Shown: positions 13,399 to 49,569 of the stretch, piece by piece
Position numbering within the stretch: position 1 is the stretch's first letter
Layout: every line of letters starts with the position of its first letter
Source of the DNA: Mucilaginibacter saanensis
GTDB taxonomy: Bacteria; Bacteroidota; Bacteroidia; Sphingobacteriales; Sphingobacteriaceae
Assembly (NCBI RefSeq): GCF_014200575.1
Contig: NZ_JACHBZ010000004.1
Span: forward strand, 1 to 64,000
Length of the DNA stretch: 64,000 nt
Direction: 5' to 3'
Made by a program: the position numbers and the translations under genes
Notes under the pieces: model-generated
Told to the model about the DNA's origin: nothing
Database searches by the model: none
Seen by the model: only the letters and a program-made list of their open reading frames with translations

Positions 13399-13525
13399 TT
13401 AAGCTGTTTTGTTTTGAGGTTTTTTGAAAAAAATCAAAACAAAAGTTATCTGTTTAAACTTTATTATAGTTAATAGTTAATAGATAGTTGATAAAACCAT
13501 AAAGTTCGATCCTGTTTGATAAAAA

Positions 13526-18616: not shown

Positions 18617-18687
18617 TTACGTTGTACGCTTCTTAAGTTGTACGTGTTACGTTGTACGTTTTACGTTAGTTTATACGTATTACGTTT
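18617..18687. repeat. Iterated-word block (TACGTTGTACGT)
   Basis: Upstream of the MBL gene the words TTACGTTGTACG, AAGTTGTACGTG, TTACGTTGTACGTT, TTACGTTAG, ATACGTAT and TACGTTTG follow in tandem. The word contains the self-complementary ACGT, so the block can also fold. I see no separate facing arm before the ABC gene. Confidence 0.65.
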
Positions 18688-23018: not shown

Positions 23019-23141
23019 TTTTAGTATCAAGTAGTTAGTATCAAGTATCAAGATTTTTGATCACAATACTAAATATTTGTAGCGGGCACTAAACGCCGGG
23101 CGATGTACTTGCTACTTGATACTAACTACTTGATACTAAAA
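23019..23141. repeat. 34-bp inverted repeat made of the word AGTATCAAGT
   Basis: The arms 23019-23052 and 23108-23141 are reverse complements with one mismatch in 34 bases. Each arm repeats the word AGTATCAAG three times. The 55-base centre holds no ORF. The structure fills the phoH-purC gap almost exactly: it starts two bases after the phoH stop and ends four bases before the purC start. Confidence 0.92.
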
Positions 23142-42394: not shown

Positions 42395-43001
42395 GTTTTG
42401 TTGCTGCCATGTACTGGGCTATTTCGCTCTCTGTGGTATCTTTACTTTGGCTCAAGGTATTTATAATGTTTTCTTGTTCCTGAGCAGTGCGGTTCTGACT
42501 AAGTTTCTTTTTGGCCTGCAACTCATCTACCGTAATTTCAAAAGCAACAATGCCTTTCATGAGCTTTTGCCGGTAGTCGTCGGGCAGGCTGTTCCATTGC
42601 TGCAGGTAATCGGTTTCAAAAGTATTGATGGTATGGGCCAACAGATCGGCAGTTTTTTGGCCCTCATCAATTAATACGGCTTCACCATAAGCATGTACCG
42701 CCAGGTAATTCCAGGTAGGTACATTGGTTACTTTTTCGTAATTGGTGGGGGAGATATAGGCGTGGGGTTCTGTAAATATCACCAGCACACTTTTACCTAT
42801 AATTTGAGCGGCCTGCGGGTTGGCTTTAGCAAAATGTGACAGCAGGATAAGCTTACCATCGCGCTGTTCTATTAAAAACGGCAGGTGGGTGGCAACAGGC
42901 ACATCATCAACCGAAGTAACTATAGCGGCAAAACTATAGCGCTGCATAAAGCTGATCGCTTCCTGCTCATTATCGAATTTGTTGAATGATGGTATGTACA
43001 T
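42384..43001 (-). CDS. PaiB-type FMN-binding protein
   Basis: The 205-residue protein belongs to the PaiB family of FMN-binding split-barrel proteins, annotated as negative transcriptional regulators after Bacillus PaiB. The N-terminus MYIPSFNKFDNEQEAISFMQRYSFA, the middle VATHLPFLIEQRDGKLILLSHFAKANPQ and VPTWNYLAVHAYG are the conserved parts. In Bacteroidota the regulator role is unproven, and a flavin-dependent detoxifying role is equally possible. It is transcribed alone toward the antiporter gene and lies between the two parts of the arginine cluster. Confidence 0.9.
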   Translation of the reverse strand: MYIPSFNKFDNEQEAISFMQRYSFAAIVTSVDDVPVATHLPFLIEQRDGKLILLSHFAKANPQAAQIIGKSVLVIFTEPHAYISPTNYEKVTNVPTWNYLAVHAYGEAVLIDEGQKTADLLAHTINTFETDYLQQWNSLPDDYRQKLMKGIVAFEITVDELQAKKKLSQNRTAQEQENIINTLSQSKDTTESEIAQYMAATKPTR

Positions 43002-43136
43002 GATGCTAACTATTCAAGACTATAATGTTCAGGAAACAATCAGTAAACTCAGACCTTGATATTTAGGCTAAAGCCATTTGTTTTCTTTAATTATCCGCCC
43101 CATAAATGGGACGGCAATGAATGAAAATATTTTATA

Positions 43137-43182
43137 AAAACCCTTGTAACTGTTGCCTGAAGCTAAACGTTGCAAGGGTTTT
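43137..43182 (-). terminator. Terminator of the arg cluster
   Basis: AAAACCCTTGTAAC (43137-43150) pairs with 43169-43182 with one mismatch; on the minus strand TTTTTATAAAAT follows. It lies just beyond the argF' stop. Confidence 0.75.
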
Positions 43183-43199
43183 ACGCATACATTTACCTA

Positions 43200-44147
43200 T
43201 TATAAGCTTTCCAGCATTTGTTTTAATACCGCTTGTGCAGCCCAAACGCGGTTGCCTGCCTCATGTATCACGATGGAATTGCTGCCGTCCAGTATCTCGT
43301 CTGACAGTTCCAGGTTACGGCGAACTGGAAGGCAATGCATTACTTTGGCATCGTCGGTTAGTTTCAGCTTTTGGTTGGTCAGCATCCATTCCTCGTTTTT
43401 ACCGAGTATATTACCGTAAGGTTCATAAGCCGACCAGTTTTTTACATAGATAAAATCGGCTCCCGCCAAGGCTTCATCCTGATCATAAGCAATATTTGCG
43501 CCCTGTGTAAAATCGGCACAAAGCTCATAACCTTTTGGTTGTACTATAGTAAAATCAACGTCGGCTTTACACATCCACTCAGAAAACGAGTTAGGTACGG
43601 CCTGCGGTAATGGTTTTATATGCGGTGCCCAGGTTAATACAACCTTAGGGCGCGCTGTGTTTTTTAGTTCCTGTATAGTTACCAGGTCGGCCAGACTTTG
43701 CAAAGGGTGGCGGGTAGCCGATTCCAGGCTTACTACCGGTACTTTGCAAAATTCAACAAACTTGTTAAATATCATTTCGCTATAATCCTCTTCCCGGTTC
43801 CGTAATCCGGGGAACGACCGTACACCAATAATATCAGCGTATTGCCCCATAACGCCTGCGGCCTCGCGAATGTGCTCTACTGTACTGCCATCCATGATCA
43901 CGCCATCGCGCAGCTCTAATGCCCATCCTTCCTTGTCTATATTAAGCACCATCACATTCATGCCCAGGTTAAGGGCCGCTTTCTGTGTGCTCATGCGGGT
44001 ACGCAAACTCGGATTCAGGAATATCAGTGCCAGGGTTTTATTTTTGCCCAGTTCCTGGTGTGCGTATGGATTTTGTTTAAGGTCCAATGCTTCTTTTACA
44101 AGCGCATTGATATCAGTAACATCATTTACAGAAGAAAATAGTTTCAT
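43200..44147 (-). CDS. argF': N-acylornithine carbamoyltransferase (N-succinyl type predicted)
   Basis: This enzyme carbamoylates an N-acylated ornithine instead of free ornithine. The 315-residue protein has the carbamoyl-phosphate motif NPSLRTRMST, the loop LRDGVIMDGSTVEHI, the motif ATRHPLQSLADL, and the C-terminal HCLPVRRNLELSDE. Residue 90 is Val. In known enzymes this position is Glu in X. campestris acetylornithine carbamoyltransferase and Pro in B. fragilis succinylornithine carbamoyltransferase, and mutating the Glu to Pro, Ser or Val was reported to switch preference to succinyl (from memory). Val here therefore predicts succinylornithine as substrate. It is the last gene of the run and has a terminator behind it. 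Confidence 0.92.
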   Translation of the reverse strand: MKLFSSVNDVTDINALVKEALDLKQNPYAHQELGKNKTLALIFLNPSLRTRMSTQKAALNLGMNVMVLNIDKEGWALELRDGVIMDGSTVEHIREAAGVMGQYADIIGVRSFPGLRNREEDYSEMIFNKFVEFCKVPVVSLESATRHPLQSLADLVTIQELKNTARPKVVLTWAPHIKPLPQAVPNSFSEWMCKADVDFTIVQPKGYELCADFTQGANIAYDQDEALAGADFIYVKNWSAYEPYGNILGKNEEWMLTNQKLKLTDDAKVMHCLPVRRNLELSDEILDGSNSIVIHEAGNRVWAAQAVLKQMLESL

Positions 44148-44170
44148 TAGCCCGGATATTTAATAACGAA

Positions 44171-45304
44171 TTATTGGTTTAATACATTTACAAAAGCCTC
44201 TAAAAATCTATCGGCATGTGCTTTGGTTAAATTAAGTGCAGGTAATAGCCTTACTACGTTTGGTTTAGCCTCGCCCGTGAAAATATGGTGTTTAAATAAC
44301 AGCTCCTTACGCACGTTTGATAGCTCTTCCGGTAGTTCAATACCTATCATCAGGCCCCGGCCCCTTACTTCTTTAACCTGCTCCAGCTTTTTAAGCTCTT
44401 TAATTAAATACTCGCCAATAGCGGCGGCATTTTGCATCAGGTTGTCCTGCTCCATCACTTCTAAAACAGCCAAACCAGCGGCGCAGGCTAAATGGTTACC
44501 ACCAAAAGTAGTGCCCAGCATGCCATAGGCAGGCTGTATTTTAGGTGCTATAATGATGCCACCAACCGGGAAACCATTACCCATACCTTTGGCCATGCTG
44601 TATATATCGGCATTAACAGCGGCAAAATCCTGCGAGAAAAATTTACCGGTACGCCCATAACCACATTGTACAGAATCGGCAATGAAAACGGCATTATGCT
44701 CATCACACAATGAACGGATCTTTTGCAGAAAGCTTTGTGGCGCAACCTGAATACCACCAACACCTTGTATACCTTCAATAATTACGGATGATATTTCATG
44801 GCCCTGATTAACGAAAGTTTGCGCTAAAGCAGCTTCATCGGCCCATGGTAAAAATATTACATTGTCGGTTTCATTGATCGGGGCAACAATTTTAGGGTTG
44901 TCGGTAACGGCAACGGCCAAAGATGTACGGCCGTGAAACGCTTTGGTAAAAGCAATCACTTTCTTTTTGCCATTGTAAAACGAGGCCAGTTTTAAGGCGT
45001 TCTCATTAGCTTCGGCACCAGAGTTGCACATAAAAAGCTGGTAATCATCCTTACCCGATACTTTACCTAATTTTTGAGCCAGTTCTTTTTGAATCGGAAT
45101 TTCGATAGAGTTAGAGTAAAAACCCAGCTGATGCAACTGATCTTCTAACCGTTTTACATAATGCGGGTGAGTATGACCGATAGAAATTACCGCATGACCG
45201 CCATACATATCCAGGTATTCGGTATCATGGTTATCATAAACCAGGCTGCCCTGGCCTCTTACTATATTTATTGGGTTAACAGGATATACGTCAAATAAAT
45301 TCAT
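44171..45304 (-). CDS. argD: Acetylornithine aminotransferase-like PLP enzyme
   Basis: This class III aminotransferase makes N-acylornithine from the semialdehyde with glutamate in the arginine pathway. The 377-residue protein has LFDVYPVNPINIVRGQGSLVYD, the PLP-binding CNSGAEANENALKLA, AFHGRTSLAVAVTDN, the Asp in FIADSVQCGYGRTGKFF, and the PLP Lys in DIYSMAKGMGNGFPVGGI. The start at 45304 (MNLFDVYPV) is chosen because a 9-residue upstream extension falls into the word-repeat arm. It follows the four-helix-bundle ORF by 43 bp and precedes argF' by 23 bp. Confidence 0.93.
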   Translation of the reverse strand: MNLFDVYPVNPINIVRGQGSLVYDNHDTEYLDMYGGHAVISIGHTHPHYVKRLEDQLHQLGFYSNSIEIPIQKELAQKLGKVSGKDDYQLFMCNSGAEANENALKLASFYNGKKKVIAFTKAFHGRTSLAVAVTDNPKIVAPINETDNVIFLPWADEAALAQTFVNQGHEISSVIIEGIQGVGGIQVAPQSFLQKIRSLCDEHNAVFIADSVQCGYGRTGKFFSQDFAAVNADIYSMAKGMGNGFPVGGIIIAPKIQPAYGMLGTTFGGNHLACAAGLAVLEVMEQDNLMQNAAAIGEYLIKELKKLEQVKEVRGRGLMIGIELPEELSNVRKELLFKHHIFTGEAKPNVVRLLPALNLTKAHADRFLEAFVNVLNQ

Positions 45305-45319
45305 ATTATTTAAGCTTAA

Positions 45320-45343
45320 AGCTGAAAGCAAAAGGCAAAAAGC
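45320..45343. repeat. Left inverted arm of the four-helix-bundle cassette
   Basis: This 24-base arm (word AGCTGAAAGC, then AAAAGGCAAAAAGC) pairs with 45735-45758 at 20 of 24 positions. It lies four bases beyond the stop of the four-helix-bundle ORF and 15 bases before the argD start codon. Confidence 0.82.
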
Positions 45344-45347
45344 TTTT

Positions 45348-45704
45348 TTACTTTCTTAATGTTTTAATCAGGCCGATCAACATGGCCTTTACTTCGTTAA
45401 GTATTTTATTTGTTTGCTGATATAGCTGTTCATCAATGTAGGATAAATCCTTACACATTAAACAGCAATACTCCAATTCATGTGCTGAACCTAACGCCTG
45501 ATCTAAAAAATGAGCAAAATCGCGTTCGGTGTTTCTACCGCATCCCTCAACAATATTGAGAGGGATTGAATAAGAACAACGTTTAGTTTGGCTTGTCAGA
45601 TCAAACTGTTCACTTTTAGGGAATTTAGGAAGTAGGGTTAAATAAACAAACATATTAAGTTCATGTGCTTTTTTCCATACTTCATATTTTTTATAATCCC
45701 TCAT
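45348..45704 (-). CDS. Four-helix-bundle protein (S23/bIVP-like)
   Basis: This 118-residue protein is of the family found in 23S rRNA intervening sequences and related to the Avd accessory protein of diversity-generating retroelements. Its motif string is clear: YKKYEVWKKAHELN, LPKFPKSEQFDLTSQTKRCSYSIPLNIVEGCGR, DFAHFLDQALGSAHELEYCCL. The four long amphipathic helices would form a basic, probably pentameric, nucleic-acid-binding bundle. It sits between argC and argD, where it has no known metabolic role, and is bracketed by inverted word-repeat arms 45320-45343 and 45735-45758. I infer that ORF and arms form one inserted unit. It lies far from any rRNA gene in this window. Confidence 0.9.
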   Translation of the reverse strand: MRDYKKYEVWKKAHELNMFVYLTLLPKFPKSEQFDLTSQTKRCSYSIPLNIVEGCGRNTERDFAHFLDQALGSAHELEYCCLMCKDLSYIDEQLYQQTNKILNEVKAMLIGLIKTLRK

Positions 45705-45734
45705 AAAATTAAGAGTAACCTATCTGCGCTTTTA

Positions 45735-45758
45735 GCTTTCGGCTTTGTGCTTTCAGCT
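45735..45758. repeat. Right inverted arm of the four-helix-bundle cassette
   Basis: This 24-base arm (GCTTTCGGCTTTGTGC, then TTTCAGCT) faces the arm at 45320-45343. It begins 31 bases upstream of the four-helix-bundle start codon and ends four bases before the argC stop codon. Confidence 0.82.
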
Positions 45759-45761
45759 AAA

Positions 45762-46760
45762 TTAAAATGCAGCTGCCTTCAGTCGCAGCCCGGCTCGTTC
45801 ATCCAGACCAAACAGCAGGTTCATATTCTGAACCGCATGGCCTGATGCTCCCTTCAATAAGTTATCTAATATGCTTATTATTAATAATTTGCCTTCGTGT
45901 TTGGTGACTTGTAAAAAACACTTATTGGTGTTTACAATCTGTTTCAGATCAATGTTACGATTGGTAACATGTGTAAACGGATGCCCCTCATAATAATCCT
46001 GATAAAGCTTCAGTGCTTCTTCAGCACTAAGATCGCTATCTGTGTATATGGAGGCTATAATACCACGCGTAAAATCACCGCGATAAGGAATAAAGTTTAT
46101 TGCCTGACTAAAGCTGGCCTGTAACTGGTTTAATGATTGACCAATCTCATTTAAATGCTGGTGATTAAATGCCTTATAAACAGAAAGGTTATCATTTCTC
46201 CAGGTAAAGTGTGAGGTGGGGGCCAAACTTTGTCCGGCACCGGTTGAGCCGGTTGTGGCTGCAACATGTACTTCGTTGTTCAGTAAGCCTTTGGCCGCAA
46301 GCGGCAATAAACCCAATTGCAGGCAGGTAGCAAAACAACCGGGGTTGGCAATGTTTTGGGCTGTTTTTATTTGTTCGCGGTTTAACTCAGGCAAGCCGTA
46401 AACAAAGTTTTTGTTGTTGAACTTTGCGTTTTTACTTAACCGGAAATCCTGGCTTAAATCTATTATCTTAATGTTGTCAGGAATTTCATTTGCCTCCAGG
46501 AATTTTTTTGCATCGCCGTGGCCCACGCATAAAAAAAGCACATCAATATCGTGAGATAATTTGCCTGTAAATTTAAGGTCGGTATCACCAAAAAGATCGG
46601 TATGCACCTCATAAATGTAATTGCCGGTATTGCTGTTGCTGTGCACAAAGGCAATATCCACATTGGGGTGATTGATGAGTATCCGCAGCATTTCGCCGCC
46701 GGTATAACCCGCGCCGCCAATAATGCCCGCTTTTATTTTATTTAACGTTGATCCTGTCAT
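45762..46760 (-). CDS. argC: N-acetyl-gamma-glutamyl-phosphate reductase
   Basis: ArgC reduces the acylglutamyl phosphate to the semialdehyde, the third arginine step. The 332-residue protein has the Rossmann motif IKAGIIGGAGYTGGEMLRIL, DLSQDFRLS, the catalytic Cys in NPGCFATCLQLGLLPL, and the substrate-binding SLAPTSHFTWRNDN. The start at 46760 (MTGSTLNKIKAG) fits the family; a 30-residue upstream extension would be read from inside the cupin gene. It overlaps the cupin 3' end by 23 bases and is followed by the four-helix-bundle insert. Confidence 0.94.
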   Translation of the reverse strand: MTGSTLNKIKAGIIGGAGYTGGEMLRILINHPNVDIAFVHSNSNTGNYIYEVHTDLFGDTDLKFTGKLSHDIDVLFLCVGHGDAKKFLEANEIPDNIKIIDLSQDFRLSKNAKFNNKNFVYGLPELNREQIKTAQNIANPGCFATCLQLGLLPLAAKGLLNNEVHVAATTGSTGAGQSLAPTSHFTWRNDNLSVYKAFNHQHLNEIGQSLNQLQASFSQAINFIPYRGDFTRGIIASIYTDSDLSAEEALKLYQDYYEGHPFTHVTNRNIDLKQIVNTNKCFLQVTKHEGKLLIISILDNLLKGASGHAVQNMNLLFGLDERAGLRLKAAAF

Positions 46761-47136
46761 TTTTTGTAGATGGGTAAGAATATAAAATAAACTCCAGGTC
46801 GGTCCGGTCGTTATTGCTGATAAAGTGTTTTTGGCCAGGCAAAATCTCAATGCCCTGCTCTGGCTTTAACTCCGTAGCCTTACCATCAATAGAGATGGTT
46901 GCCCGTCCTTTTAAAATGAAGAATAACTGGGTTGCTTTTTCATGATAATGTAGTTGCTCGGCAGTATCAGGAGGCATTAATTCCTGCTTAACAGATAAGG
47001 CTTCGGTATCAATAAAGGTCCACCCGTGGCAGTCATCGCCCCAGTTATAGTGATCAAGGCATTCTCCTTTAGAGAAAACCCCTCTGCCCCCTAATGGGGG
47101 AGTTGGAACGGTGTTTATATTTTCTTTATCTGCCAT
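46738..47136 (-). CDS. Cupin-domain protein with repeat-derived N-terminal insert
   Basis: The 132-residue protein is a single cupin barrel: metal-site motif LHYHEKATQLFFILKGRATISIDG, then PEQGIEILPGQKHFISNND. The family start (residues such as HYNWGDDCHGWTFI) is preceded here by an unusual peptide NTVPTPPLGGRGVFSKGE. The DNA that codes it (47063-47110) contains the GC-rich dispersed repeat word TTAGGGGGCAG also seen before rpe, so a repeat has been taken into the reading frame or the true start is later. There is no ATG between it and the cupin core. A role in the arginine run is unknown; the gene sits between argG (15 bp) and argC (23-base overlap). Confidence 0.85.
   Translation of the reverse strand: MADKENINTVPTPPLGGRGVFSKGECLDHYNWGDDCHGWTFIDTEALSVKQELMPPDTAEQLHYHEKATQLFFILKGRATISIDGKATELKPEQGIEILPGQKHFISNNDRTDLEFILYSYPSTKNDRINVK
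47063..47104. repeat. Dispersed GC-rich repeat inside the cupin gene
   Basis: The plus strand reads CTCCTTTAGAGAAAACCCC, then CTGCCCCCTAATGGGGGAG. The second part is the inverse of the word TTAGGGGGCAGGGGG at 14030-14045. Read on the minus strand it encodes PPLGGRGVFSKGE of the cupin N-terminus. Confidence 0.6.
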
Positions 47137-47151
47137 AATTAGTCTTGAGCA

Positions 47152-48366
47152 TTATTTGCTTCCATCTTCAGGAAGCTGTGGGCCATTAACCTTATGATAG
47201 ATCATGACCTGGTTACCAAATATTTTGGAGAAGCCTTTTACATCTTCACCACTCCAGGCATTGTTCATTTCGCCATAACTGCCAAATTTATTCGACATCA
47301 GATCATGGTCAGATTCAATACCCACTACCTGGAAACGATATGGATGTAGCTGTACAAATACCTTGCCGCTTACGTTTAGCTGCGTATCATTTAAAAACGC
47401 CTCAATGTTGCGCATAATAGGGTCGTGAAACTGACCTTCATGTAACCAGTTGCCATAAAAAGAAGATAACTGATCTTTCCATGATAGCTGCCATTTGGTT
47501 AATACGTGTTTCTCCAGTGTATGGTGCGCTTTGATGATCACCATCGGGGCCGCGGCCTCGAAACCTACACGGCCTTTAATACCGATAATGGTATCGCCCA
47601 CGTGAATATCACGACCGATGCCATAAGGTTGTGCCATGGCCTGTAACGCCTGTATGGCTTTGGTTGGATGATCGTATCTTTCATTATCGATACCTACCAA
47701 TTCGCCTTTTTCAAAAACAAGTTCAATGTCCTTTACCGCAGATTCGGTAACCTGGGTAGGCCAGGCCTCTTCCGGTAAACCTAAGTTGGAAGTAAGTGTT
47801 TCTTTACCGCCAACAGATGTACCCCAGATACCTTTGTTGATAGAGTACTTTGCTTTTTCAAAGTTCATTTCAACGCCGTGTTTTTTGAGGTAGTCAATTT
47901 CCTCTTCGCGGCTCAGTTTTAAATCGCGGATAGGGGTGATGATCTTTACTTCAGGTACAAGAATGTTAAAGATCATGTCAAAACGTACCTGGTCATTACC
48001 GGCACCGGTACTGCCGTGCGCTACAAATTCGGCACCTATTTCTTTGGCATAATTTGCAATAGCAGTAGCCTGGCTCACGCGTTCGGCACTTACTGACAGT
48101 GGATAGGTGTTGTTTTTTAAAACGTTACCATAAATCAAAAAGCGGACACATGTATTGTAAAAGTTAGTAGTTTCATCAACCACGTGGTGTGAGGTAACAC
48201 CCATTTTATAGGCGCGTTCTTCCACTCCTTTTAATTCTTCGTCGCTAAAACCGCCGGTATTTACAATAACGGAGTGTACTTCGTAACCAAGGTCCTGTGT
48301 TAAATATATACAGCAAAATGAGGTATCTAATCCTCCGCTATATGCTAATACTACTTTTTTCTTCAT
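47152..48366 (-). CDS. argG: Argininosuccinate synthase
   Basis: ArgG joins citrulline and aspartate with ATP. The 404-residue protein has the P-loop-like KKVVLAYSGGLDTSFCCIYL at the N-terminus, GSTGAGNDQVRFD, the aspartate/citrulline-binding segments SINKGIWGTSVGGKETLTSN and IGIKGRVGFEAAAPMVIIKAHHTLEKHVLT, and the C-terminal HDLMSNKFGSYGEMNNAWSGEDVKGFSKI. Length matches the bacterial form. If the pathway runs through N-succinyl-citrulline, a deacylase (argE-like) must supply free citrulline; none is in the window. It follows the GNAT gene, with an inverted word repeat in the 110-bp gap. Confidence 0.95.
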   Translation of the reverse strand: MKKKVVLAYSGGLDTSFCCIYLTQDLGYEVHSVIVNTGGFSDEELKGVEERAYKMGVTSHHVVDETTNFYNTCVRFLIYGNVLKNNTYPLSVSAERVSQATAIANYAKEIGAEFVAHGSTGAGNDQVRFDMIFNILVPEVKIITPIRDLKLSREEEIDYLKKHGVEMNFEKAKYSINKGIWGTSVGGKETLTSNLGLPEEAWPTQVTESAVKDIELVFEKGELVGIDNERYDHPTKAIQALQAMAQPYGIGRDIHVGDTIIGIKGRVGFEAAAPMVIIKAHHTLEKHVLTKWQLSWKDQLSSFYGNWLHEGQFHDPIMRNIEAFLNDTQLNVSGKVFVQLHPYRFQVVGIESDHDLMSNKFGSYGEMNNAWSGEDVKGFSKIFGNQVMIYHKVNGPQLPEDGSK

Positions 48367-48377
48367 CTTTTTTGAGC

Positions 48378-48480
48378 TTAAAGCTAAAAGCGGAAGGCTT
48401 AAAGCTTTTTTCTTTTCAATTTATGTGTACTTGTTTTATAAACTTATTTCTTGCTTTAGGCTTTTGGCCTTTAGCTTTAA
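48378..48480. repeat. Inverted word repeat (word TTAAAGCTAAAAGC) between GNAT gene and argG
   Basis: The arms 48378-48405 and 48453-48480 are reverse complements at 23 of 28 positions around a 47-base centre. The word (AAAGCTAAAAGC) is the same as in the arms of the four-helix-bundle cassette (AAAGCTGAAAGC). The right arm covers the stop codon of the GNAT gene. No ORF is present in the centre. Confidence 0.82.
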
Positions 48481-49124
48481 TCGTGATCCTGTCCGATGCG
48501 TTTTTTAATGGCATTTTCGATACGCTCAAGCAGGGTAGCCTTGTGTGTTATCCGTTTCATTTTTTCTTCGTCCTGTTTCAGTTTTTCAACCGGATCAAAC
48601 AGCATGGCGGTACACATGCAGTTTTTGCGTTCCTTGCTCATTAAAATGTCATAGTTAACGCAGCTTTTACAGCCGGCCCAAAAGTTTTCGTCCTGGGTAA
48701 GTTCAGAATAAGTTACCGGTTCATAGCCAATTTCTGAATTTATCTTCATTACGGCCAGTCCGGTAGTTAAACCAAAAATTTTGGCGTTGGGATATTTGGT
48801 TCTGGAAAGCTGGAAAATACGGTGTTTAATGGCTTTAGCCAATCCAGCTTTGCGAAACTGGGGGTTAACAATAAGGCCCGAATTAGCCACAAAATCGCCG
48901 TGGCTCCAGGTTTCAATATAGCAAAAACCGGCCCAGGTGCCGTCTTTATGTAAGGCAATAACAGCCTTGCCTTCCAGCATTTTATTAGCAACATATTCAG
49001 GCGAGCGTTGTGCAATGCCCGTACCCCGTGCTTTTGCCGATTCGGCCATTTCGTCACATATTTGGGCGGCATAATCTACATGCTGGGCTGTAGCTACCTT
49101 AATATCAAAATCTTGTATGGTCAT
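48477..49124 (-). CDS. GNAT acyltransferase, candidate N-acylglutamate synthase
   Basis: The 215-residue protein has a GNAT domain (about 8-160) with the acyl-CoA-binding region VNPQFRKAGLAKAIKHRIF, and a C-terminal part with two cysteine pairs (CKSC, CMC) that could bind a metal. It is the first gene of the arg run in a genus group that lacks a classical argA or argJ in this window. I infer that it makes the N-acylglutamate that starts the pathway; acetyl or succinyl donor is open. The C-terminal stretch (EEKMKRITHKATLLERIENAIKKRIG) is helical and basic. No clear TAnnTTTG promoter is visible upstream. Confidence 0.8.
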   Translation of the reverse strand: MTIQDFDIKVATAQHVDYAAQICDEMAESAKARGTGIAQRSPEYVANKMLEGKAVIALHKDGTWAGFCYIETWSHGDFVANSGLIVNPQFRKAGLAKAIKHRIFQLSRTKYPNAKIFGLTTGLAVMKINSEIGYEPVTYSELTQDENFWAGCKSCVNYDILMSKERKNCMCTAMLFDPVEKLKQDEEKMKRITHKATLLERIENAIKKRIGQDHD

Positions 49125-49425
49125 TGAAATAGATATTACCGTTAAATTAATTGGCTTAAGAGCCTTAATAATTAGATGGTTTTTTTAAAAAGAAGTTTAA
49201 AAACTTTCTTTTTTTAAGGGGTTCAGGAACAGAAATTAATTCAAACCCGAGGCATATAGGGCCTTCGTCGGGAAGGGCAGCATAAAAAAACAGTTGAAAC
49301 CAAAGCAGCGGCAGCCGGAGCAAATGTTGCTCTTATTGCAGGCTTATTTAAGCTTTGTTGATTCATTTTTTGAGGTATTACTGTGTTTTTAAATTTTGTG
49401 CAAAGTATCGCATTAATTTTTATTT

Positions 49426-49569
49426 ATGCAAGTAAAAAATCATTTAATGATGTTTAGTTTATATAACTCCCCTCATCACGGTAAATATTACATTAAAATT
49501 GTGCGCGATGGAGGTTTGGGCTGGCAGTACATGGCAATAAAAAAGCACAATAATTATACCGGTATGTAA
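49426..49569 (+). CDS. Possible small protein of 47 residues
   Basis: ATG at 49426 opens 47 codons to TAA at 49567. The product begins MQVKNHLMMFSLYNSPHHG and continues with KYYIKIVRDGGLGWQYMAIKK, which looks protein-like. Against it, its last ten codons lie in the terminator hairpin of the opposite-strand gene, and I see no promoter or family. It is listed as a weak candidate only. Confidence 0.25.
   Translation: MQVKNHLMMFSLYNSPHHGKYYIKIVRDGGLGWQYMAIKKHNNYTGM

Follow-up and report, generated by a model that had tools for sequence, protein, structure and literature searches.

A four-helix-bundle gene between inverted heptad arrays in an arg operon, a probable copy of a widespread class of small IVS-like mobile elements

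The arg operon in the window, by which we mean the whole 64,000-nucleotide stretch of DNA that was analysed, raises the question of what a small ORF between two inverted repeats is doing between argC and argD of this soil bacterium. On the minus strand the gene order is argC (45762-46772), a 118-aa ORF (45348-45704) and argD (44171-45304), all co-oriented, with Semialdhyde_dh domains in argC and Aminotran_3 in argD (Pfam). An earlier note on this DNA had described the ORF as S23/bIVP-like, with 24-base inverted arms (20 of 24 bases paired) that are built from a repeated word, adjoin the argC stop and end ahead of argD. These observations held, positions included, and the word can be refined to a degenerate array of period 7 (AAAGCNN). 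The element consists of the following features:

45348..45704, minus strand: four-helix-bundle (S23/IVP, PF05635) ORF of 118 aa (ORF call, Pfam, AlphaFold2 model)
45728..45758, minus strand: 5′ heptad arm in the sense of the ORF, adjoining the argC stop (pairing, period)
45311..45344, minus strand: 3′ heptad arm, inverted complement of the 5′ arm, directly ahead of argD (pairing, period, RNA fold)

The ORF matches PF05635 (23S_rRNA_IVP) at 118.8 bits, against a cut-off of 33.8. Its only other Pfam match is to bAvd (E 4e-4, below the family cut-off), and Pfam recognised neither a nuclease or recombinase domain nor a DDE, Y1 or serine transposase domain in it. The AlphaFold2 model (mean pLDDT 97.3) matches two solved relatives, PDB 2gsc (Xcc0516; TM 0.88) and 2rld (BT_0352), both of which have five chains per PDB entry, and it also resembles Avd (TM 0.85 to 8ub7, a DGR ribonucleoprotein; about 0.8 for 8ub7/4dwl). 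Polar residues E32, Q39, S46, N50, E53, S73 and E76 are invariant among 55 proteins, a set that leaves room for a putative catalytic role. The S23/IVP family is large, a single query having at least 7997 relatives at E 0.001, and is described as having no known function (PMC4990558). PF05635 has four matches in the whole genome, and on the window's contig it matches only 45348-45704. A known Rfam RNA is ruled out, with no match at E 1 in 43000-49500.

The arms are degenerate heptad arrays of period 7, with about four heptads each and mostly of one polarity. In the window they are complementary at 84% over 25 nt (45320-45344 with 45734-45758), with weaker pairing extending to 76% over 42 nt (45302-45343 with 45728-45769), and the up/down pairing score of this locus (L002) is 34, above the maximum of 27 reached in 50 shuffles. 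The word noticed earlier, AGCTGAAAGC, is part of an array of repeated AAAGCNN that is present in both arms. Arms that beat all 50 shuffles flank 56 of 61 dereplicated full-length loci of the genus Mucilaginibacter (70 loci minus 4 with short ORFs, then 66 minus 5 near-duplicates), the exceptions being L029, L068, L084, L107 and L125, whereas control stretches of the same layout, placed at random within fetched loci, passed in 2/132, 4/120 and 1/125 cases (7/377 in total). The 61 loci do not represent the family at random, since the first 33 are the best Pfam match per genome and the rest come from arg loci.

Arms were picked by pairing and not by period, and their lag-7 identity is 0.70 and 0.72 compared with 0.30 in shuffles (55 arms per side). 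Constancy at the successive positions of the heptad is 0.97, 0.95, 0.92, 0.87, 0.79, 0.64 and 0.50 (44 arms), and within one element a heptad comprises four to five near-constant and two to three variable positions. The two arms match each other at 0.854 in register and at 0.73 after a slide of one heptad (49 elements); thus, the variable positions tend to pair too. Arms have a median length of about 4 heptads. The strand that comes in at the 5′ side is the AG-rich one in 46 of the 47 genus elements with heptad arms, and in 7/9 and 27/30 elements of the wider sets. A stricter, pairing-independent array detector (background, 50/3000 single windows) was positive on both sides in 30/61 genus elements and 3/30 loci of the phylum set. 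Only in 8 cases did the downstream arm of the locus itself rank first among the 61 candidate partners, because many genus loci have words in common.

Similar arms occur well beyond the genus. The arm test (50 shuffles) was passed by 15/30 loci from other Bacteroidota families and by 44/77 loci of a multi-phylum set, a sample (80 of 584 matches listed, minus 3 with short flanks) that includes Clostridia, Planctomycetota, Verrucomicrobia, Acidobacteriota, CPR, Chloroflexota, Proteobacteria and others; among the failures (15/30 and 33/77) short heptads are visible by eye in many. When the 120-nt flanks of the 77 multi-phylum loci were taken without selection, a period-7 array was present in 58%, compared with 3% of 70 control pairs, and other periods (4-6, 8-11) were found in 0 to 6.5%. 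Heptads can be seen by eye in five cyanobacterial plasmid loci, and a Nostoc plasmid locus has, by eye, a GGGGAGT-like word close to the GGGGA(C/T)T repeats of PMC4692102. Copies on Calothrix plasmids yielded no element boundary, because the flanking sequence is common to the copies as well. One four-helix-bundle query found 0 matches in 50,697 phage records, and on that search phage carriage is rejected. Relatives of the gene are framed by such arms in many phyla, often with a word of their own, and the whole has the look of a common type of small mobile element that has gone largely unnoticed. As a separate observation, a heptad-armed element in Anabaena sp. 90 (pANA02; L314) lies between cas6 and cas4 in a type I-D CRISPR operon.

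Within the genus, the word appears to travel with the protein. Protein identity and arm similarity correlate with r 0.84 over 1275 pairs (51 elements, 10 of the 61 genus loci being left out for short arms or proteins; 0/500 permutations), and with r 0.76 over the 1047 pairs at different sites alone (0/500 permutations). Three words, AAAGC, AAAGG and AAAGT (assigned by the count of core matches in the arm), occur at the GNAT-argG and argC-argD gaps of the arg operon, and a tree of 25 proteins from both gaps, with strong support on only 5/22 inner branches, has 2 word changes, the minimum for three states, and 7 site changes. Two arg operons (L085, L121) contain two elements each, and the two differ in both protein type and word. 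In three genomes with 11-15 PF05635 matches, arms were present in 23/25 elements and most proteins have different words; this set omits 16 of the 41 listed matches (for 11 of them no locus was retrieved, and 5 are fragments or interrupted copies) and has three members (L021, L318, L326) that already belong to the genus set of 61. Inside single genomes the correlation is weak (r 0.29; 34/1000 permutations), because few copies of one genome are related. On these sequence comparisons, the heptad word is coupled to the protein clade within the genus.

The same words also occur without an ORF. In the window's genome, AAAGCNN arrays were found at 26 places (one mismatch allowed) and AGTATCA arrays at 39 (two allowed), with 0 hits for either reversed-pattern control. 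Inverted pairs make up 9 of the AAAGC and 21 of the AGTATCA places, all in the polarity of the four-helix-bundle elements, and single arms make up 17 and 18. One inverted pair per word is the four-helix-bundle element itself, with arms about 380 nt apart, and the remaining pairs are 113 nt or less apart. The places outside these elements are named ORF-less since the other two of the genome's four PF05635 matches overlap none of the places listed; 11 loci and the window's own two were read individually. The two in the window are:

48373..48480, no strand assigned: ORF-less hairpin with the same AAAGC heptads as the element at argC-argD, between a GNAT gene and argG
23023..23138, no strand assigned: ORF-less inverted pair of AGTATCA heptads, the word of another four-helix-bundle element of this genome (G000:C16:27180-27606) and not that of the element at argC-argD

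We read the hairpin at 48373..48480 as a non-autonomous derivative of the AAAGC element. The AGTATCA hairpin has a stop codon directly on one side of it and, directly on the other, the start of a gene that by eye looks like purC. Two more heptad-like arrays, of TACGTTN and ATAGTTA types, are present in the window at 18640-18668 and 13464-13494.

Across genomes, AGTATCA arrays were found in 21/22 genomes with the matching protein clade and in 28/78 without it (Fisher 3e-7, not corrected for kinship). The clade was defined by 59% identity or more, the remaining matches listed having 50% or less, and 4 of the 22 copies are partial or interrupted. One genome (G022) has 181 hits without the matching clade and another (G046) has the clade and no hits; the link between array and clade is therefore strong, not strict. 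Clade-less arrays are numerous in G022, G007, G079, G098 and G093 (40-181 hits each), and these may be orphaned ORF-less families or be kept up by another protein. No AGTATCA arrays were present in three close genomes examined. A looser pattern, AGTNNNN repeated five times, beat its reversed control in 17 of 22 genomes, lost in 4 and tied in 1, and is not leaned on because TGA-containing heptads match the control too.

The argC-argD junction is not the same in all relatives. Among 98 argC-argD gaps (99 arg loci less one in which argD had no match), 21 have a full-length element, 60 have none detected, 5 have both arms without the ORF, 9 have a single arm or remnant, and 3 have another insert; the full-length class includes interrupted ORFs in at least L119 and L132, and the L078 remnant retains the end of the ORF. 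Presence differs in pairs with argC about 90% identical (L090/L099, L074/L085, L101/L112), while in two pairs with argC at 0.86 (L149/L154, L082/L102) both loci have elements but of unlike word and protein type, at identities of 0.69 and 0.65. To judge from these alignments, close species differ in whether they have the element, lack it, retain it in decayed form or have another in its stead. Its arms abut stop and start codons, and in a target-site comparison the gap sequence of element-less relatives does not align with the window's; neither a target duplication nor a clean-edged empty site came out of these comparisons. The earlier note's reading of ORF and arms as a single cassette is supported by this turnover and by the arms of family members in all the sets surveyed, and its suggestion of a small mobile cassette is supported by the non-orthologous elements at argC-argD in species whose argC is 86% identical and by the same-word places without a PF05635 match; neither of the two outcomes that the note named as refuting it was observed. 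From such comparisons we infer that the element has moved; many copies stay in place within the genus. Two further observations concern the same gaps. A 1.4-kb gene with an HPFDDGNGR motif, presumably Fic-like, fills the argC-argD gap instead in L141, L160 and L161. Unrelated palindromic families (TCATTGCGAGG..., GTCATGCTGAA..., CCCCCTAAAGGGGG, GTAGAGACGCAA...) are found in the argC-argD and GNAT-argG gaps of other Mucilaginibacter (L113, L130, L116, L104, L154 and others), and therefore the two gaps may be general hotspots for hairpin elements.

How the element comes to be at a given site could be explained otherwise, by a homing-like spread in which homologous recombination in the flanking genes carries the cassette from the gap of one species into the same gap of another and jumps are rare. 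The sites do recur (argC-argD, GNAT-argG and, by eye, further common gaps), and 5/6 ortholog pairs from other genomes occupy the same site in both species. L099 and L112, with elements at 0.87 and argC at 0.79, have in common the element and, by eye, the last ~20 bases of argC, their closest relatives lacking both, as such recombination would leave it. In L081/L082, on the other hand, the element (0.96) is more alike than argC (0.89) or argD (0.93), with an edge that is not sharp because identity remains high into argD. Also against homing, the 25-protein tree implies at least seven moves of a word/protein clade between the two arg operon sites, ORF-less places are dispersed, and L341 and L328 have related proteins and, by eye, the same word at different sites, L341 being a locus that failed the arm test. 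We consider homing-like spread unlikely on balance, if the best placed of the alternatives. Element identity exceeds argC identity in 41/210 pairs and does not in 169/210, which together with the same-site orthologs indicates that many copies are inherited in place or fast-evolving. An element at GNAT-argG is present in G038 and G052. In G041 and G097, which are closely related to them, that gap is without an element and argC-argD has one; in the tree, which did not include the G097 protein, the G041 protein groups with the G038 and G052 proteins.

The neighbours point to life in transcripts. Genes on both sides are co-directional with the ORF at 60/61 genus loci (a set enriched in arg loci), 26/30 loci of the phylum set and 54/74 of the multi-phylum set, as expected of an element living in transcripts, and the predicted RNA fold of the whole element has the arms paired (z -3.33). 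Since the Coxiella 23S IVS has the same parts, we propose an IVS-like element here: the window's element probably belongs to a class of small, IVS-like mobile elements that extends across the bacteria, each an S23/IVP gene between inverted arrays of about four degenerate heptads. In the mechanism that we envisage, the element lies in sense orientation in an operon gap, and its transcript would form a stem, roughly 28 bp long, that encloses the ORF. The S23/IVP protein would recognise its own heptad array, perhaps with one heptad per subunit of a ring, the target being the RNA stem, or a DNA cruciform, made by the arms. Through such recognition the protein would be able to mobilise both the element that encodes it and hairpins of that word that lack an ORF. 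Operons and rRNA would tolerate the insertion because RNase III would cut the element out of the RNA, as it is reported to do with the 23S rRNA IVS, and DNA cutting or copying might fall to a host enzyme.

Sense orientation within operon gaps, paired arms and same-site orthologs would equally suit a vertically inherited module for RNA processing or regulation, in which the protein binds an operon hairpin and controls its own and its neighbours' expression with no mobility. We regard this as improbable, since a full-length element occupies only 21/98 argC-argD gaps, non-orthologous replacement is seen between species with argC 86% identical, and ORF-less places are dispersed. Slightly less probable still is a relative of the retroelements, in which an Avd-like protein and an unlinked reverse transcriptase would reinsert the hairpin RNA; the fold match to Avd (8ub7) and the sub-threshold bAvd match favour it, and as possible chemistry it overlaps with the IVS-like reading that we prefer, but in the phylum sample a search for RVT_1 at E 0.001 found no match in 120/232 genomes bearing the four-helix-bundle gene, which rules out reverse transcriptase as an obligatory helper. 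Simple repeats made by slippage, accumulating in intergenic gaps with the ORF unrelated, are ruled out for practical purposes by the inverted placement around these ORFs against the control rates, the biased array polarity, the word-protein coupling and the two-site tree, even though, among the long repeats of many bacteria, those with a unit of seven are the most frequent class (PMC4679880 and PMC4692102).

A broader version of the IVS-like reading is attractive, and we hold it tentatively, at somewhat under an even chance: a distinct bacteria-wide mobile class whose sole protein would be a ring-forming four-helix bundle reading 7-nt units by a clade-specific code, with the heptamer repeats of cyanobacteria, xanthomonads and Beggiatoaceae, the Nostoc trnL intron and the 23S rRNA IVS as its cognate sites or copies. 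If the IVS-like reading is true, it would give the S23/IVP family a role, explain why heptamer repeats are over-represented in bacterial genomes, extend the rRNA IVS to mRNA operons, and offer many naturally different pairs of protein and 7-nt repeat for testing recognition.

Several known systems resemble the element in part. Heptamer repeats have been described as GGGANTN in Xanthomonas and GGGGA(C/T)T in Nostoc, the Xanthomonas arrays having mostly four units and including 70 convergent inverted pairs in X. campestris (PMC4692102), while TAACTGA repeats are degenerate 7-nt tandem units, mostly intergenic (PMC4679880). The window's arms are, like these repeats, degenerate 7-nt tandem units of mostly intergenic location. 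In the Nostoc trnL intron, P6b contains pairing heptads, and one motif class has repeatedly been replaced by another (PMC4476775). Terms for S23 have 0 matches in the accessible text of PMC4692102, PMC4679880 and PMC4476775, which to that extent link no S23 or four-helix protein to the heptamers.

With the Avd protein of diversity-generating retroelements the ORF product has in common the four-helix-bundle fold (4dwl, 8ub7); unlike DGR Avd, it has no adjacent reverse transcriptase, the window's contig being without an RVT_1 match and the genome's single match lying on contig C8. Systems of the REP/RAYT and MITE kind comprise a protein-coding copy plus many ORF-less palindromic copies of a shared sequence. 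A coding copy with multi-copy ORF-less derivatives is found here too, and the terminal inverted repeats are those expected of an insertion sequence or MITE; the differences are that no Y1 or DDE transposase domain is present and that the arms are degenerate heptad arrays.

The closest precedent is the 23S rRNA IVS. The earlier note knew of no described transposable unit made up only of such an ORF and such arms. Among the open-access papers listed, none reports in its title or abstract an S23/IVP ORF flanked by heptad arms outside rRNA, but the IVS is a nearer relative than the note allowed. In the Coxiella IVS, GACAGAT heptamers lie directly upstream of the S23 start, the terminal stem is 28 bp, RNase III cuts at the first heptamer, and heptamer number varies between strains (PMC4990558). 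The distribution of S23 IVSs is sporadic, and horizontal transfer has been proposed, with Leptospira also cited (PMC4990558). The link between heptad word and protein seen here does not appear in the accessible part of that paper. The window's element has in common with the 23S rRNA IVS an S23/PF05635 protein and complementary termini forming a stem around the ORF and, with that of Coxiella, heptamers beside the ORF. By anatomy, then, it is a 23S rRNA IVS, and it departs from one in location, lying between the protein genes argC and argD and not within rRNA.
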